From positions 806,001-870,000 of the forward strand of contig NZ_CP130322.1 in NCBI RefSeq assembly GCF_033025475.1: a DNA stretch of 64,000 nt, given 5' to 3'. Shown here in pieces: positions 27 to 7,434 of this stretch (positions within the stretch are counted from its first letter, which is position 1; each line of letters opens with the position of its first letter). Source of the DNA: Sphingomonas sp. C3-2. GTDB taxonomy: Bacteria; Pseudomonadota; Alphaproteobacteria; Sphingomonadales; Sphingomonadaceae. The notes beneath the pieces are model-generated. The model was given only the letters and a program-made list of their open reading frames with translations. It had not been told where the DNA came from and did no database searches. Made by a program: the position numbers and the translations under genes.

Positions 27-1736
27 ATGGCTTCTATGAATCCCTCGCGCGACGAATTCGCCGCGCTTCTCAATGAAACGCTCGGTGGCGAAAACGAAGG
101 CTTTGAAGGCCGCGTCGTCAAGGGCACCGTCACCGCAATCGAAAACGATCTGGCTGTCATCGACGTAGGCCTGAAGTCGGAAGGCCGCGTGCCGCTGCGC
201 GAATTCGCTGCGCCGGGCCAGAAGGCCGACCTCAAGGTTGGCGACGAAGTCGAAGTCTATGTCGACCGCGTCGAAAACGCCAATGGCGAAGCCATGCTGT
301 CGCGCGACCGCGCGCGCCGCGAAGCCGCCTGGGACAAGCTCGAAGCTGAATTCAGCGAAAACACCCGCGTCGAAGGCGTCATCTTCGGCCGCGTCAAGGG
401 CGGCTTCACGGTCGACCTCAACGGCGCCGTCGCCTTCCTTCCCGGTTCGCAGGTCGACATCCGCCCCGTGCGCGACGTCACCCCGCTCATGGATATTCCG
501 CAGCCGTTCCAGATCCTCAAGATGGACCGTCGTCGTGGCAACATCGTTGTGTCGCGTCGCGCGATCCTCGAAGAAACCCGCGCCGAACAGCGTTCGGGCC
601 TGATCCAGACGCTGGCCGAAGGCCAGGTGATCGAAGGCGTCGTCAAGAACATCACCGATTACGGTGCGTTCGTTGACCTTGGCGGCATCGACGGCCTGCT
701 GCACGTCACCGACCTGAGCTACAAGCGCATCAACCACCCGTCGGAAATGATCAACATCGGCGACACCGTCCGCGTGCAGATCATCCGCATCAACCGCGAA
801 ACGCAGCGCATCTCGCTCGGCATGAAGCAGCTTGAGAGCGATCCGTGGGAAGGCGCAGCCGCCAAGTACCCGGTTGGCGCGAAGCTGACCGGCCGCGTGA
901 CGAACATCACCGAATATGGTGCGTTCGTTGAACTCGAACCCGGCATCGAAGGCCTGGTCCACGTTTCGGAAATGAGCTGGACCAAGAAGAACGTCCACCC
1001 CGGCAAGATCGTTTCGACGAGCCAGGAAGTCGACGTCATCATCCTCGAAGTCGACGAAGACAAGCGTCGTATCTCGCTGGGCCTCAAGCAGGCGATCAAC
1101 AACCCCTGGGAAGCGTTCGCCGCAGCGCACCCGATCGGCAGCGAAGTCGAAGGCGAAGTCAAGAACGCCACCGAATTCGGCCTGTTCATCGGCCTGGACG
1201 GCGACGTGGACGGCATGGTCCACATGTCGGACATCGCATGGGGCATCTCGGGCGAAGACGCACTGGCTCTGCACCGCAAGGGCGAAGTCGTGAAGGCAAT
1301 CGTTCTCGACATCGACGTCGAGAAGGAGCGCATCTCGCTCGGCATGAAGCAGCTTGAAAAGGGTGCACCGGCAATCGGCGGCGCAGTCACCTCGGGTCTG
1401 GCGAAGAACAGCGTTGTCACCGTCACCGTTCTCGAAGTTCGCGATGGCGGCCTCGAAGTGCAGGCTGGCGACGATGGCGCAACCGGCTTCATCAAGCGCA
1501 CCGACCTCGGCCGCGACCGCGACGAACAGCGTCCGGAACGCTACCAGGTTGGCCAGAAGTTCGACGCGATGGTCACCGGTTTCGACCGTTCGAAGAAGCC
1601 GACCTTCTCGGTCAAGGCAATGCAGATTGCCGAAGAGAAGCAGGCAGTTGCACAGTATGGCTCGTCCGACTCGGGCGCGTCGCTGGGCGACATCCTCGGC
1701 GAAGCGCTGAAGGCGCGCACCGAAGACAAGAAGTAA
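27..1736 (+). CDS. rpsA: 30S ribosomal protein S1
   Basis: This 569-residue protein binds mRNA on the small ribosomal subunit and helps load it for initiation. Six S1/OB-fold repeats can be followed at roughly residues 28-96, 112-178, 197-268, 284-355, 371-441 and 457-530. The central ones carry the typical turns DYGAFVDL, EYGAFVEL and EFGLFIGL, and several end in an ISLGMKQL-like strand. The length matches alphaproteobacterial S1. The start at 27 has an AGGAAA Shine-Dalgarno at 12-17; a second Met three codons on is possible. A strong terminator follows and then ihfB, the same order as in many proteobacteria. The gene that precedes it (often cmk) lies outside the window. Confidence 0.98.
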   Translation: MASMNPSRDEFAALLNETLGGENEGFEGRVVKGTVTAIENDLAVIDVGLKSEGRVPLREFAAPGQKADLKVGDEVEVYVDRVENANGEAMLSRDRARREAAWDKLEAEFSENTRVEGVIFGRVKGGFTVDLNGAVAFLPGSQVDIRPVRDVTPLMDIPQPFQILKMDRRRGNIVVSRRAILEETRAEQRSGLIQTLAEGQVIEGVVKNITDYGAFVDLGGIDGLLHVTDLSYKRINHPSEMINIGDTVRVQIIRINRETQRISLGMKQLESDPWEGAAAKYPVGAKLTGRVTNITEYGAFVELEPGIEGLVHVSEMSWTKKNVHPGKIVSTSQEVDVIILEVDEDKRRISLGLKQAINNPWEAFAAAHPIGSEVEGEVKNATEFGLFIGLDGDVDGMVHMSDIAWGISGEDALALHRKGEVVKAIVLDIDVEKERISLGMKQLEKGAPAIGGAVTSGLAKNSVVTVTVLEVRDGGLEVQAGDDGATGFIKRTDLGRDRDEQRPERYQVGQKFDAMVTGFDRSKKPTFSVKAMQIAEEKQAVAQYGSSDSGASLGDILGEALKARTEDKK

Positions 1737-1757
1737 TCGATAAATTTTCCAGTAAGG

Positions 1758-1794
1758 TGCCGCCGTCGCTTCATGCGACGGCGGCATTTTTTTT
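1758..1794 (+). terminator. Rho-independent terminator of rpsA
   Basis: A 12-bp perfect stem (TGCCGCCGTCGC and its complement) encloses a 5-nt loop and is followed by eight T residues. It sits 21 bp after the rpsA stop. It separates rpsA from ihfB, which must therefore have its own promoter in 1795-2019. I could not assign a convincing -35/-10 pair there. Confidence 0.92.
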
Positions 1795-2019
1795 CGTCTT
1801 TCCAATGGCCTGCACAAATTGACGTTTTCAGGCCCCGAAATGCCCGTGCTTTCTGGCCGAAGCGCATTCGGGCAAGGGCTTGCAAATGCACCGCAAAACG
1901 TCACATTTGGGACGCCGATCGAATGGTGTGGGGCCATTTTCCGGCGCTTAAGCGTTACAACAGCCCAACCCGGCGTATCGAGGCCTGTGGCCTCGACACC
2001 CATTTATGGGGATATTGCC

Positions 2020-2307
2020 ATGATCCGTTCCGAACTTGTTCAGAAGCTCGCTGCGGAAAACGCCGATCTGTCGCTGAAAGACGTGGAACGCATTGTCGAC
2101 GTCTTTTTCGACGAGATCACGGCACGCCTTGCCGAAGGCGGCCGCGTGGAACTGAGGGGCTTTGGCGCCTTTTCCACACGTGCACGTGCATCACGCCAGG
2201 GCCGCAACCCGCGCACGGGAGATCCGGTGGAAGTGGACGCCAAGCGCGTCCCCTATTTCAAACCGGGCAAGGAAATGCGCGAACGACTGAACATGGACGA
2301 CCATTGA
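2020..2307 (+). CDS. ihfB: Integration host factor subunit beta
   Basis: This 95-residue DNA-bending protein of the HU/IHF family pairs with IHF-alpha in transcription, replication and recombination complexes. The arm region is diagnostic: RGFGAFS near residues 46-52, then GRNPRTGD and [14 protein letters not shown]. That pattern fits IhfB better than HU or IhfA. The open frame extends 67 codons upstream, but the ATG at 2020 has a GGGG Shine-Dalgarno about 8 nt before it and begins exactly where the family begins (MIRSELV). It is convergent with the ABC permease gene on the other strand. Confidence 0.93.
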
Positions 2308-2309
2308 TA

Positions 2310-2332
2310 GGAGCGGAGCCTGGCTCCGCTCC
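2310..2332. terminator. Hairpin between ihfB and the convergent ABC permease gene
   Basis: GGAGCGGAGCC followed after one base by its complement forms a compact hairpin directly after the ihfB stop and 22 bp from the end of the convergent permease gene. The T-run is weak, so it may act on both strands or only protect transcript ends. Confidence 0.6.
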
Positions 2333-2353
2333 TTATCCTCGCCGTGCTCCTGC

Positions 2354-3121
2354 TCAGCTTTTGAGACGATAGCCGGTCCGGAAAATCCACCAGATCACGA
2401 CCAGGCACAGAAAGAAGAAACCGAGCGTCGCCGCGAGGCTGAGCGTGATGCTGACATCCCCCTTCCCAAAGAAGCTCCAGCGAAACCCGCTGATCAGATA
2501 GACGATCGGATTGAACAGCGTGACCGTGCGCCAGGCCGGCGGCAGCATGTCGATCGAGTAGAAGGCCCCGCCGAGAAAGGTGAGCGGCATCACCACGAGC
2601 AACGGAATGACCTGAAGCTGTTCGAAATTGCGCGCCCAGATGCCGATGATGAAGCCGAACAGGCAGAAGGTGGCCGCGATCAGGAGGAGGAACGCCGCCA
2701 TCCAGAACGGATGGGCGATCGTGACATCGACGAAGAGATGCGCGGTCGCGAGGATGACGAGCCCGACGATCACCGATTTCGTTGTCGCCGCGCCAACATA
2801 GGCGAGCACCGTCTCGAACGCCGAAATGGGCGCCGAGAGCAGTTCATAGATCGTGCCGGACCATTTGGGCATGAAGATGCCGAAGCTGGCGTTGAAGATG
2901 CTTTCGGTAAACATCGAGAGCATGATCAGCCCCGGGACGATGAACGCGCCGTAAGGGACGCCGCCGATTTCGGTCATCCGCGATCCAATCGCCGAGCCGA
3001 ACACGATGAAATAGAGCGAGGTGGTGATCACCGGCGTGACGAGGCTGGTGAGCGCGGTGCGCATGAAGCGGTGGATTTCGAACTTGTAGATCGACCAGAT
3101 GCCGCGAGCGTTGAAGTTCAC
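2354..3121 (-). CDS. ABC-2 type transporter permease
   Basis: This 255-residue inner-membrane protein has about six hydrophobic segments (near 20-43, 58-78, 105-127, 137-158, 166-190 and 225-248). The ABC-2 permease signature region [17 protein letters not shown] lies before the last loop. It should form a dimer that exports a substrate using the ATPase encoded just upstream, whose stop overlaps this start by 4 nt (ATGA), indicating translational coupling. The family covers multidrug, polysaccharide and Nod-factor-type exporters; the substrate cannot be read from the sequence. Nothing nearby gives a pathway clue. Confidence 0.93.
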
Positions 3122-4116
3122 TGGCCTTCCCCCTTCCCGTCGCGCACGAGCCCGACGAAGATTTCCTCGAGCGAGCTTTGGCGGGTGTTCAGATCCTTGA
3201 ACCCGATGCCGAGATCGCCCAGCGCGCGCAGCAGCGAGGGCACCCCCGTCCGTTCGGCATTGATGTCGAATTCATATTGCAGCTCGTTGCCGTCGGCATG
3301 GAGCGTGAGCGGCCATTCGGCGAGCGTGTCGGGAATGGCGGCCATCGGCTCGCTGAGATTGAGCGTCAGCGTCTTGCGCCCCAGCTTCTTCATCAACCGC
3401 GTCTTTTCCTCGACAAGGATCAGTTCGCCCTTGCTGACCACGCCCACGCGGTCGGCCATTTCCTCCGCCTCCTCGATATAATGGGTGGTGAGGATGATGG
3501 TGACGCCGCTTTCGCGGAGTTCGCGGACGAGCTGCCACATGTCGCGCCGCAGATCGACATCGACACCCGCGGTGGGTTCGTCGAGGAACAATATCTCGGG
3601 CTCATGCGCGAGCGCCTTGGCGATCATCACCCGACGCTTCATCCCGCCCGAAAGCTCGATGATCTTGGCGTTGCGCTTTTCCCAGAGGCTGAGATCGCGC
3701 AGCACCTTTTCGACGAGCGCGGGATTGCGCGGCTTGTTGAACAACCCGCGGCTGAAGCTGACGGTATCGACCACGCGTTCGAACTGGTCGGTATGCAGTT
3801 CCTGCGGCACCAGCCCGATCCGCGCACGCGCCGCGCGGTAATTCTGGACGATATCGTGTCCGGCCACGCTGACCGTTCCCGAACTGGGACGGACGATGCC
3901 GCAGACGATACTGATCATCGTCGTCTTGCCCGCGCCATTGGGGCCGAGCAGCGCGAATATCTCACCGCGCCGGATATCGAGGTTCACGGCCTTGAGCGCC
4001 TGGACCCCGCCCGCATAGGTCTTGGTGAGACCGGCAATGGAAATGATCCCCTCACCCGGTGGGACCGCGCCATCGGCACGCCCCCCGCCATTGGATTCCG
4101 GAACTACGCCGCGCAT
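3118..4116 (-). CDS. ABC transporter ATP-binding protein (ABC-2 exporter type)
   Basis: This 332-residue cytoplasmic ATPase energises the permease encoded immediately downstream. Walker A is GPNGAGKT (58-65), the ABC signature is LSGGM (155-159), and Walker B is ILFLDEP (175-181) followed by a D-loop and the switch histidine in LTTHY. About 85 C-terminal residues beyond the nucleotide-binding fold form the extension usual in DrrA/CcmA-like exporters. The first 22 residues are Gly/Pro-rich and may not be translated, because the family normally begins near [11 protein letters not shown]; no clearly better start with a Shine-Dalgarno was found. Confidence 0.95.
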
Positions 4117-4264
4117 CCTCTACTCCTGTTTTTATTATATCCCAGCTATCGGACGGGAGCGGCGCAACCGCAAGCCGGCGCAGCGCGAAACGCTCTTTTG
4201 CGCGACCAGAGGCGAACAACCCGCTTGACCGAAGGGCCGTTATCCGCCTTTGGTCAGCCATCAC

Positions 4265-4350
4265 GCGGATGTGGCGAAATCGGTAGACGCAGCGGACTTA
4301 AAATCCGCCTCCCTCTGGGAATGCGGGTTCAAGTCCCGCCATCCGCACCA
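4265..4350 (+). tRNA. tRNA-Leu (anticodon UAA)
   Basis: The acceptor arm GCGGATG pairs with CATCCGC and encoded CCA occupies 4348-4350. The anticodon stem GCGGA/TCCGC encloses a CTTAAAA loop with anticodon TAA at 4299-4301. A long variable arm identifies a class II tRNA, and the T arm has GGTTCAAGTCC. It reads UUA and, by wobble, UUG. The next gene starts only 43 bp downstream. Confidence 0.97.
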
Positions 4351-4392
4351 GAACACTTGCCCCCTACCCTCCCCATCGTCCAAAGGCAGTAT

Positions 4393-5907
4393 GTGACTGC
4401 CAGAATCGACATTGGAACAGATGGCACCGGACAATCGGTGCAAATGGATCTTGAAGAACTGCTCGCGACCCGGCTGCTCGTGCAGGGCAATTCGGGATCG
4501 GGAAAGTCGCACCTTTTGCGCAGGCTGCTCGAGGGTAGCGCCGGGCTGGTCCAGCAGGTGGTGATCGACCCCGAGGGCGACTTCGTGACGCTTTCCGAAC
4601 CCTTCGGGCACGTCGTGCTGGATGCCGCCGAGCACAGCGAGGGCGAGATTGCCCGCATCGCCGCGCGAATCCGCGAGCACCGCGCCTCGGTGGTGCTGAA
4701 CCTTGAAGGGCTGGACCTTGATGCGCAGATGCGCTGCGCGGGCGGTTTCCTGTCCGCGCTGTTCGATGCCCCGCGCGATCATTGGTATCCCGCGCTGGTG
4801 GTGGTCGACGAAGCGCAGATGTTCGCGCCCGTTGCCGCGGGCGAATTTTCCGAAGATGCGCGCCGATCCGCGCTGGGCGCGATGACCAACCTGATGTGCC
4901 GTGGCCGAAAGCGCGGGCTGGCCGGCGTGATCGCGACGCAGCGTCTGGCGAAGCTGGCCAAGAACGTCGCGGCCGAAGCCTCGAACTTTCTGATGGGGCG
5001 TACCTTCCTCGATATCGACATGGCGCGCGCGGCCGACCTGCTGGGCATGGACCGGCGCCAGGCCGAGCAGATCCGCGATCTGGAGCGCGGGCGCTTTCTG
5101 GCGCTTGGCCCGGCGGTGTCGCGCCGCCCGCTTTCGGTGAAGATCGGCGAGGTGAAGACCGGCGCGCGCGGCGGCACCCCCAAGCTGACCCCGCTGCCCA
5201 CCGCGCCCGAGGATCTGGAAGACCTGCTGTTTTCCTCGTTGGAAGTGGCGCACCCGCCGCCGCCTCCCCCGCCGACACCGCGCGTGACATCCGAGGAACT
5301 GATCCGATCGATCGCGCGGCCGGTGCTGACGCCCGCATCCCCCACACCCGCCGCGCCGCCGATGGAGGAAGGGCCGCGCAACGCAATCATCTCTGCCGTG
5401 CTGGCCGAGATCTGCGCCGATCCCGACGCGACCTACCGGACGGCGGCCGTGCTGTATCAGGATTTCGGGCTGCGCTGCCGCATGCGCCAGCTCAATGATC
5501 CGGGCATGGACCTGGCCGATTTCCGCCGCCGCCTTGCGATGGCGCGCGCCGGGATTTTCGACGAGGGCGATGAGAGCTGGACCGAGGCGCTGGAGCTTTC
5601 GACCCGACTGCCCGAGGACATGCTGGGCGCGTTTCTGTTGATCGCCCGCGCGGCGAAGGATGTGCTGCCCTGCCCATCCGACGCCGAACTGGCTGAGGTT
5701 TACGGCACGCGCTCCCCCGGGCGCGTCCGGCGCCTGCTGAGCTATATCGAGGCGCGCGGGCTGCTCGTCACCCGCATCGACCTTTCGGGCAAGCGTACGC
5801 TGACCCTGCCCGACCTGGGCTGGACCACCGCGCCCGCCATTCCCGAACCCGAGCAGCCGAGCGCGACGCCCGCGCGCGGGACGGCCGATATGGGCTCGCT
5901 GCTCTAA
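4393..5907 (+). CDS. HerA/DUF87-like ATP-binding protein
   Basis: This 504-residue protein has a FtsK/HerA-type P-loop fold: Walker A GNSGSGKS (32-39), Walker B LVVVDE (135-140) followed by AQMF, and a sensor segment GVIATQR (178-184). HerA-type ATPases are hexameric pumps for DNA or peptides, but this subgroup has no function I can name. After about residue 284 comes a run of prolines and a low-complexity linker, then an alpha-helical region ending in a likely winged helix (GRVRRLLSYIEARGLL). The GTG start at 4393 has AAAGG about 7 nt upstream and begins at the family N-terminus; the longer frame upstream runs through the tRNA and is not real. An 85-residue gene follows after 10 bp. Confidence 0.85.
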   Translation: MTARIDIGTDGTGQSVQMDLEELLATRLLVQGNSGSGKSHLLRRLLEGSAGLVQQVVIDPEGDFVTLSEPFGHVVLDAAEHSEGEIARIAARIREHRASVVLNLEGLDLDAQMRCAGGFLSALFDAPRDHWYPALVVVDEAQMFAPVAAGEFSEDARRSALGAMTNLMCRGRKRGLAGVIATQRLAKLAKNVAAEASNFLMGRTFLDIDMARAADLLGMDRRQAEQIRDLERGRFLALGPAVSRRPLSVKIGEVKTGARGGTPKLTPLPTAPEDLEDLLFSSLEVAHPPPPPPPTPRVTSEELIRSIARPVLTPASPTPAAPPMEEGPRNAIISAVLAEICADPDATYRTAAVLYQDFGLRCRMRQLNDPGMDLADFRRRLAMARAGIFDEGDESWTEALELSTRLPEDMLGAFLLIARAAKDVLPCPSDAELAEVYGTRSPGRVRRLLSYIEARGLLVTRIDLSGKRTLTLPDLGWTTAPAIPEPEQPSATPARGTADMGSLL

Positions 5908-5917
5908 GGATCGCCCC

Positions 5918-6175
5918 ATGGACCTCGACACGCTGATCCACCATTATTTCGGCACCGACGACCTCGATGCGCTGTCCGACGACGCACTCGCGCGCGGGCA
6001 GGAAGCGCTGGCGATCGATTTCGGCATCGCACAGGAACCGGGCCGCCGCTTTGCGCTCTGGGCGCTGATGCAGATGATGGGATGCGCGCCCGATCCGGAC
6101 ACGGCATTCGAGGACGCGGAGGAGCGCCGCGCTGCGTGGCGCTTTGCCCGGATGACAGAGCCGCCGCGCGACTGA
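5918..6175 (+). CDS. Small acidic hypothetical protein, partner gene of the HerA-like ATPase
   Basis: This protein of 85 residues is rich in Asp and Glu, with no signal peptide or membrane segment. It is probably all-helical, with an N-terminal DLDTLIHHYFGTDD stretch and a central ALWALMQMMG helix. I do not recognise a family. It starts 10 bp after the ATPase stop, preceded by an AAGGA Shine-Dalgarno, so the two are very likely co-transcribed. Its codon use resembles that of neighbouring genes. A role as a small regulator or adaptor of the ATPase is a guess from position only. Confidence 0.75.
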   Translation: MDLDTLIHHYFGTDDLDALSDDALARGQEALAIDFGIAQEPGRRFALWALMQMMGCAPDPDTAFEDAEERRAAWRFARMTEPPRD

Positions 6176-6618
6176 TCCGGATCATAAAGGCGACATGACG
6201 ATTGTCCCCTTTGTCGCGCGTGCATCGAAATGTTGCCCTTGCACACAAAATGATAATGATTATCAAGAGCGCGCAATGACCCGTCGCGCCGCCCTTTCCG
6301 ATTCGCATTTTCGGCAGATCGACCGGCGCGGCACCGCCTGGCCCGCCAAGGCCGATCGGATGCGCATAATGCCGCCATACCCGGCATTGCCACGCCAAGA
6401 CGCACGCACCGGCGGATTTTTGCGGGTTTCGCCAAAGGCGCGCACCGATGCCTGCCCGCACCCGCCACCGACGCAGCCCAGCCTATTCACGCCAAAACAA
6501 TTCTTACGTTGCTCTTGGCGAACAAGGTTGTATCGACGCGCTGCAGGCGTTTTGCCCCGGCATTGGCGCGTTTGGCGTGCCCGACACCTGCCCCGTTTGA
6601 TCAAATGAGAGTTTTCGA
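6176..6618. other. 443-bp gene-poor gap upstream of fpr
   Basis: No convincing protein gene fills this gap. It holds a Fur-box-like palindrome (6251-6265). The longer plus-strand frame at 6274-6608 is Arg/Pro-rich with no recognisable pattern and looks non-coding. A 50-codon frame from ATG 6448 to TGA 6600 ends 18 bp before fpr and has a Cys-containing C-terminus (GCIDALQAFCPG and DTCPV). It could be a real micro-gene or chance. The rest may be a long fpr leader or an unannotated small RNA. Confidence 0.5.
6251..6265. promoter_or_regulatory. Candidate Fur box
   Basis: TGATAATGATTATCA is a perfect 7-1-7 inverted repeat. It matches the core of the ferric uptake regulator (Fur) operator and stands out as an AT-rich island in GC-rich DNA. 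The first protein gene downstream on the plus strand is fpr, 354 bp away. To the left there is no divergent gene it could serve. Confidence 0.62.
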
Positions 6619-7434
6619 ATGAGCGACCGTAACGCTGCCGCATCGCTGCTTGCCCCTTCGGCCAGCCTTTCCGTCGAGGAAGTGCTGAGCGTGCGCCACT
6701 GGAACGAGCATCTTTTCAGCTTCACCATCACCCGCCCCGCAAGCTTCCGCTTCCGTTCGGGCGAGTTCGTGATGCTGGGCCTGCCCGATGGCAACCGCCC
6801 GCTGCTCCGCGCCTATTCGATCGCCAGCCCGTCTTATGCCGAGGAACTGGAGTTCCTGTCGATCAAGGTGCCCGATGGCCCGCTGACCTCGAAGCTGCAG
6901 CTGATCCAGCCGGGCGACCAGCTGTTCCTTGGCCGCAAGCCGACCGGCACGCTGGTGGCCGATGCGCTGCTGCCGGGCCGCCGCCTTTTCCTCTTGTCCA
7001 CCGGCACCGGGCTTGCCCCGTTCCTGAGCATCATCCGCGATCCGGAAATCTATGACCGGTTCAACCAGATCGTGGTGGTCCACAGCGTGCGCCGCGTATC
7101 CGACCTCGCCTTCCGCGAGGAACTGGAATCGCAGCTGGCGGGCGATCCGCTGGTGCAGGACCAGGCGCTGGTGCAACTCAGCTATCTGCCGACCGTAACG
7201 CGTGAGGAATTCCGCACCACGGGCCGGATCGACAAACTGATCAGCGACGGCACGCTGTTCGAAGGCCCGCTGGCCGGCCCCAAGAATTTCGATCCCGAGC
7301 TGGACCGCATCATGCTGTGCGGCAGCATGGCGATGATCAAGGAAACCGCCGCGATGCTCGACGAATTGGGCTTCGAGGAAGGTTCGAACAACAAGCCCGG
7401 CCATTATGTGATCGAGCGCGCCTTTGTCGGCTGA
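6619..7434 (+). CDS. fpr: Ferredoxin--NADP+ reductase
   Basis: This FAD enzyme of 271 residues passes electrons between NADPH and ferredoxin or flavodoxin in the cytoplasm, supporting Fe-S enzymes and oxidative-stress repair. The FAD-binding motif RAYS is at 64-67, the NADP-binding loop GTGLAPF at 129-135, and a CGSMAM segment lies near the C-terminus. It ends in YVIERAFVG, the C-terminal form seen in bacterial subclass FPRs. The start has GAGAG upstream. A Fur-like site lies 354 bp upstream, which would fit iron or redox control but is too far away to be certain. A terminator follows. Confidence 0.94.
   Translation: MSDRNAAASLLAPSASLSVEEVLSVRHWNEHLFSFTITRPASFRFRSGEFVMLGLPDGNRPLLRAYSIASPSYAEELEFLSIKVPDGPLTSKLQLIQPGDQLFLGRKPTGTLVADALLPGRRLFLLSTGTGLAPFLSIIRDPEIYDRFNQIVVVHSVRRVSDLAFREELESQLAGDPLVQDQALVQLSYLPTVTREEFRTTGRIDKLISDGTLFEGPLAGPKNFDPELDRIMLCGSMAMIKETAAMLDELGFEEGSNNKPGHYVIERAFVG

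Follow-up and report, generated by a model that had tools for sequence, protein, structure and literature searches.

The window, a 64,000-nucleotide stretch of Sphingomonas sp. C3-2 DNA, encodes an ATPase of the HerA/FtsK class followed at short distance by a small acidic gene. In the reading that we favour and hold to be rather probable, the ATPase is a free-standing HerA/FtsK-class motor for double-stranded DNA that targets itself through a C-terminal winged helix, and the small gene is a separate gene rather than a required subunit. The ATPase gene is widespread but unstudied in bacteria and encodes a variant of a known motor class; a limited literature search returned no publication that we recognised as treating this ATPase family. 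The original prediction had described an ATPase of HerA/FtsK type, ending in a winged helix and lacking NurA, and had suggested that it may define a two-component system with the small protein. The description of the ATPase stood; the two-component system did not.

Two genes downstream of a tRNA-Leu gene

The ATPase gene starts 42 bp after the end of tRNA-Leu(TAA), and the small acidic gene starts 10 bp after the ATPase stop codon (Table 1). The ATPase frame is open back to 3178; this longer version was rejected since the tRNA gene, ending 42 bp before 4393, lies in between and the start therefore cannot be further upstream. In 17 aligned homologues, the start codon nearest to the match was chosen, and it falls at or within a few residues of the same start. 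Against three congeners, the ATPase has a dN of 0.08–0.23 versus a dS of 0.72–0.94, and the small gene a dN of 0.31–0.33 versus a dS of 0.90–1.14; each is present in more than half of 149 genomes of the sphingomonad family. Judged from these sequence comparisons, both frames are real genes. A chance origin of the small frame was rejected because its dN is well below its dS and the gene is found in 80 of the 149 genomes (81 rows minus a weak one, G013); the short acidic gene that had been noted behind the ATPase is genuine by the same dN/dS measure.

Table 1. Features of the ATPase locus, in window positions
Feature	Position	Strand	Details
tRNA-Leu (TAA)	4265..4350	+	ARAGORN and Rfam; directly upstream of the ATPase gene
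ATPase gene	4393..5907	+	GTG start, 504 aa; Pfam DUF87 2e-8; HerA/FtsK class
Walker A GNSGSGKS, residues 32–39	4486..4509	+	G32, G35, G37, K38 and S39 invariant in 44/44 homologues
Walker B strand PALVVVDEAQ, residues 133–142	4789..4818	+	D139 and E140 invariant in 44/44
RGRKRGLAGVIATQR, residues 170–184	4900..4944	+	R170, R172, R174, Q183 and R184 invariant in 44/44; strand in model
Proline-rich linker, residues 261–325	5173..5367	+	identity 0.40 vs 0.79 in the core; pLDDT block means 36–65 over 261–320
Helical segment, residues 326–403	5368..5601	+	AlphaFold2 model
Predicted winged helix, residues 408–472	5614..5808	+	H-H-H-E-E order, high pLDDT
Small acidic gene	5918..6175	+	ATG start, 85 aa, computed pI 4.34; five predicted helices; sphingomonad family

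The five neighbours scanned in the window are of housekeeping type, namely ribosomal protein S1, an ABC-2 transporter pair, a flavin/NAD-binding reductase and a solute-binding protein. A tRNA-adjacent genomic island is unsupported, given these neighbours and the presence of a tRNA-Leu gene in only 2 of 46 other loci scanned (L097, TAA; L164, GAG), each more than 1 kb away from the ATPase.

The ATPase core belongs to the HerA/FtsK class by model and sequence

DUF87, the HerA central domain in Pfam, is matched by the window ATPase and by all 44 aligned homologues, and no other HerA family was found by Pfam for the window protein at E values up to 1. An AlphaFold2 model built with 44 sequences has a mean pLDDT of 82.7 and a pTM of 0.54; between residues 141 and 260 its block means are 69–91, with places down at 69–83. 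Residues 1–263 of the model align to Sulfolobus HerA (4d2i) with a VIA Z score of 29.6 and an rmsd of 2.5 over 244 residues, which take up a 356-residue stretch of HerA. Twelve of the 15 top rows in the VIA list (Z 26–30) are structures titled HerA, and further HerA rows, DndH, VirB4, TrwB, viral B204 and FtsK follow at Z 19–26; the comparison covers the structures listed, and families absent from the list are not thereby excluded.

Among the 44 homologues, mean identity to the query falls from 0.79 in the core to 0.40 in the linker and stands at 0.56 in the C-terminal part; all 14 tested positions (in Walker A, Walker B, R170–R174, Q183–R184 and R203) are invariant in every homologue. The part of PMC10853773 that treats the HerA/FtsK clade gives as its marks a sensor-1 glutamine and an arginine finger just ahead of strand 4. 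Along with Walker A and Walker B, the window ATPase carries a candidate sensor-1, Q183, and candidate arginine finger(s), R172/R174, just before the strand 176–182, and so presents the HerA/FtsK signature. On the evidence of the model and the sequence together, the core is of the HerA/FtsK class, and the intact Walker A, Walker B and sensor segment that had been read from the sequence were borne out.

The protein nevertheless differs from HerA itself. It shares with the HerA of NurA-HerA systems (4d2i, 9x1m, 7wrw; Z 24–30) the RecA-like core, the Walker motifs and the candidate sensor glutamine and arginine segment, but has an additional C-terminal winged helix, and NurA (PF09376) was found in 0 of 20 relatives, the window's own genome included, whereas 7 of 14 control genomes were positive. 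The predicted lack of NurA was thus upheld. Residue 1 of the model pairs with HerA residue 117 and nothing is aligned before it, indicating that the N-terminal part of HerA is missing from the ATPase. The HAS barrel of HerA presumably lies before residue 117; this N-terminal domain is absent from the window protein according to the model alignment and a start bounded by the tRNA gene. Against the NCBIfam HerA equivalog, the protein scored 29.1 bits, below the cut-off of 970.

The motor core is also shared with FtsK (Z 19.5 to 2iut), though by Z score it is nearer to HerA. FtsK likewise ends in a winged helix and has an N-terminal membrane domain; as the ATPase core begins at residue 1, there is no room for a membrane domain of that type. 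The HerA-like E. coli YjgR/DUF853 proteins are stand-alone ATPases of ∼500 aa without a HAS barrel, features in which the window ATPase would be alike. Viral packaging ATPases in BFVD match the core as well, and among PHROGs the top matches are a family of unknown function (1e-15) and a terminase large subunit (4e-13). Because of this resemblance to viral packaging ATPases and a terminase, the fold alone does not give the job of the protein.

A predicted winged helix closes the protein

Behind the proline-rich linker, the AlphaFold2 model of the whole chain shows four helices and then a segment in winged-helix order, with pLDDT block means of 91–98 over residues 331–480, in agreement with the helical/winged-helix end anticipated by the original prediction. 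Pfam has no match in this part, and a profile search of it against the PDB gave nothing significant (best E 0.23). In the model, the C-terminal winged helix is probably a DNA-binding module.

The ATPase is a patchily distributed accessory gene

Strong ATPase matches were obtained in 87 of the 149 family genomes (92 rows minus five weak ones, G028, G044, G089, G134 and G136) and in 11 genomes outside the family in a class sample of 289. In a phylum sample, 40 of 299 genomes matched at E 1e-10, all of the same class among the matches listed. Among named genomes, at least 571 of 595 candidate stretches carry the ATPase, and 80 loci were kept; the genera here include Sphingomonas, Sphingobium, Novosphingobium, Sphingopyxis, Rhizobium, Mesorhizobium and Devosia, among others. 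The ATPase is a patchy, accessory chromosomal gene in the Alphaproteobacteria. It is also found on plasmids and chromids, where 15 of 21 near-full-length copies are named 'ATP-binding protein' and six are without a listed feature. In one Sinorhizobium record the gene lies between murI and rpsD, and a pseudogene with many stops is present in a 1.5-Mb alphaproteobacterial genome (G691:C1:255191-256504).

A search for a conserved neighbour as the partner of the ATPase found none, the commonest non-ATPase cluster being present in only 20 of the 80 kept loci. In Sphingomonas loci such as L107, L110 and L112, the ATPase lies amid RuvC/RuvA/YebC-like and GapR/DUF1244-like genes, the cluster names (GapR, DUF1244, YebC, RuvC) having been given by eye from the sequences. 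The ATPase lies ∼10 kb or less from ribosomal protein S1 in several genomes (G034 contig C10; G055 contig C1; the window, 27–5907). In G034 the small gene sits between the two, a hint of an ancestral shared region.

A role in antiviral defence was considered as well. Among PADLOC profiles, the nearest were a defence HerA (4e-16) and MADS mad8 (PDLC04140; 7e-16). The mad8 profile is covered almost from end to end (ATPase residues 7–263 to profile positions 6–311 of 314), and capture of HerA/FtsK motors by defence systems is proposed in the portions of PMC10853773 and PMC12839542 that deal with it. That the window ATPase is the motor of such a system is nonetheless very improbable: no defence family was found among its five scanned neighbours, there is no conserved neighbour in the 80 kept loci, and Pfam recognised no effector domain in the protein, which further differs from mad8 in its extra helical/winged-helix C-terminus. 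Neither a SIR2 nor a DUF4297 partner gene was present among the five neighbours. A literature search directed at MADS gave nothing useful.

The small acidic gene is a genuine but separately travelling family

The family of the small acidic gene has a nearly constant length and a five-helix model with a pLDDT of 91.5. In the class sample (n = 289), it was found in three genomes, all within the sphingomonad family; it is a genuine family, found here only in sphingomonads. No known family was matched by Pfam or in a further family search, and fold comparison was uninformative: the best Foldseek match had an E of 1.5, and the best VIA match, a designed helical repeat, had a Z of 6.0. The possibility that the protein is a derived piece of the ATPase C-terminus was rejected, with an hhalign probability of 0.1. 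Phage records and viral contigs yielded no copy of the gene, and 11 sphingomonad plasmid records, pNL1 included, contain it. Six of the plasmid copies were opened (L226–L231, including pNL1); they lie amid plasmid cargo, with Fic or toxin-antitoxin-type genes close by in four of the six.

We also weighed a two-component system in which the small protein would be dedicated to the ATPase as its regulator or adaptor, with genes unlinked in most genomes. The two genes are co-oriented and 10 bp apart, and no terminator-like site was found within 4100–6700, hence none between them. Both are present in all five genomes of the genus and adjacent in four of them; in the fifth (G890), separate contigs carry them, and the ATPase contig continues for 37 kb downstream of that gene. 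Across the 149 family genomes, both genes occur in 62, the ATPase alone in 25, the small gene alone in 18 and neither in 44, giving a raw odds ratio of 6.1 (p = 4e-7, relatedness uncorrected).

Linkage is also closer than expected at random. The small gene lies within 300 bp of the ATPase in 6 of the 62 two-gene genomes versus ∼0.01 expected, and within 10 kb in three more versus ∼0.4 expected, where random placement assumes 3.3-Mb genomes and ignores relatedness. Distances were taken for 38 of the 62 genomes, chosen by eye as one-contig (G102, one contig with the genes ∼3 Mb apart, was omitted). Measured from the match end and not from the stop codon, the small gene is 9–14 bp downstream in the same direction in three genomes of one genus, and it is 96–292 bp upstream and divergent in three others. 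In the 80 kept loci, it is within 120 bp in eight (four downstream, four divergent) and at 3.8 kb in one more. Adjacent pairs are present in G000, G021, G107 and G891, and a divergent pair in Sphingopyxis. On the ATPase tree, the linked state needs six changes (gains or losses) and linkage recurs in separate clades. Close linkage thus recurs above chance in several clades and in two layouts, which can be explained by an optional functional link or by genes that shared a position ancestrally and were rearranged later.

Set against this, the two genes are clearly separable. The small gene is missing from 25 of the 87 ATPase genomes and from all 11 ATPase carriers outside the family, and the ATPase is missing from 18 of the 80 small-gene genomes, so that the constant co-occurrence expected of the pair in sphingomonad genomes was contradicted. 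When relatedness was corrected for on a ribosomal protein S1 tree (146 of 149 genomes, the other three having no match), no significant association emerged from the 14 supported independent pairs, a number of low power (median p = 0.51); on average, 5.5 pairs agreed in direction, 2.6 ran counter and 5.9 showed no difference. In the six opened plasmids there is no ATPase match within 5 kb of the small gene, although both genes are present, at distances of several hundred kilobases, in two of the 11 plasmid records (AP027331.1, ∼450 kb; NZ_CP020539.1, ∼610 kb). An obligate two-component system cannot explain this distribution, and we regard a dedicated regulator or adaptor as unlikely. The recurrent linkage and the raw odds ratio are a hint that the small gene may matter to the ATPase. 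As the small gene is real but travels separately, no fixed two-part system is formed. The 10-bp spacing seen in a single genus was no sign of an obligate pair, and such spacing should be read with caution.

A possible mode of action

Under the favoured reading of a free-standing, self-targeted motor, the ATPase would probably assemble into a hexameric ring and use ATP hydrolysis to move DNA or hold it. Its own C-terminal winged helix would bring it to DNA, in place of a nuclease bound to a HAS barrel, as NurA is. Such a motor may serve genome maintenance, for instance in segregation, in recombination or in dealing with integrated elements. In this genus the small acidic gene has the same orientation as the ATPase gene and is probably co-transcribed with it; it would not be a required subunit. 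A HerA-type motor that does without both NurA and the HAS barrel and brings its own DNA-binding end would offer a simple model for the aiming of such motors.

Relatives on viral contigs and plasmids carry other DNA-recognition parts

A scan of IMG/VR found 12 contigs with an ATPase match. Two of them (L409 and L410) have a full-length copy at the contig end, and L411 has a truncated copy that groups with Sphingopyxis; these three may be host flanks. In L420 there is just a 298-aa core. The other eight (L412–L419) carry a core 57–68% identical to that of the window ATPase and, unlike the chromosomal form, have a conserved N-terminal region of ∼100 residues ahead of the core, which is HTH-like, and a short C-terminal end after it; HTH_23 was matched at E 0.02 in the N-terminal region of L417, and no match was found in that of L412. 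A further difference is a ParB-like gene directly upstream, overlapping the ATPase frame, in 8 of 8 contigs; the cassette lies, for example, at L417:2297-6304 and L419:963-10716. The two copies scanned are DUF6551/phrog_1033, making the phage cassette a source of a concrete partner candidate. As far as the relevant part of PMC12704722 goes, phage DUF6551-type ParB-fold proteins bound CTP and ATP in one study. An overlapping frame of 159–297 aa follows the ATPase in seven of the eight contigs. Genes resembling repressors (6/8), primases (7/8) and integrases (6/8) are nearby, and those scanned, one of each, are an S24 repressor, a CHC2/Toprim primase and a tyrosine integrase; on account of these genes we call the contigs temperate.

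In a midpoint-rooted tree, the eight viral rows form one clade beside the chromosomal rows and far from the plasmid rows. Together with the identity of their cores and with 32 presence/absence changes of the ATPase on the S1 tree, this makes it conceivable, though on balance doubtful, that the chromosomal gene was domesticated from a temperate phage, or the phage copy captured from a host, and that the ATPase handles mobile-element DNA, for example in replication, partition or interference. The direction of transfer is not given by a midpoint-rooted tree, however, no phage family was found among the five scanned neighbours of the window ATPase, and the purifying selection fits a host function equally well.

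The plasmid relatives are more distant; the paralogue on L178 is 43% identical over 261 core residues. Their cores are related, and they differ from the chromosomal form by a downstream multi-HTH gene of ∼400–424 aa, which follows the DUF87 ATPase in all eight opened plasmids (L177, L178, L179 and L258–L262). It overlaps the ATPase by 4 bp in the five plasmids that annotate it as a gene of its own, lies in an unannotated gap in two, and is part of a longer annotated gene in one. The seven other copies are 54–67% identical to that of L177, which has HTH_38, Myb and GcrA matches; both copies scanned have several HTH matches. At the C-terminus of the plasmid ATPase, HTH_11/MarR matches below Pfam's cut-off were seen in L178 and none in L177, the two scanned. 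Neither the multi-HTH gene nor the ParB-like gene was found near the chromosomal ATPase in the window and the 80 kept loci.

Because the phage and plasmid relatives have partner genes, the chromosomal ATPase may need a partner that is encoded elsewhere. We tentatively suggest, as a possibility well short of the free-standing motor in likelihood, an undescribed class of HTH-aimed HerA-core motors comprising the chromosomal form in Alphaproteobacteria (core and C-terminal winged helix), the temperate-phage form (N-terminal HTH-like region and core, coupled to a ParB-like nucleotide-binding protein) and the sphingomonad plasmid form (core and multi-HTH protein). That the same core pairs with different DNA-recognition parts across hosts is the main support for an HTH-aimed DNA motor as the mechanism. 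If it exists, the suggested class would represent a ParA-independent way of directing a DNA pump to a selected site, be it in partition, in replication or in integration.

Two other genes recur around the plasmid DUF87 ATPases: a PAPS-reductase-family gene lies upstream in three of the eight plasmids, and an ATP-binding/histidine-kinase-like gene lies downstream in five of the eight.
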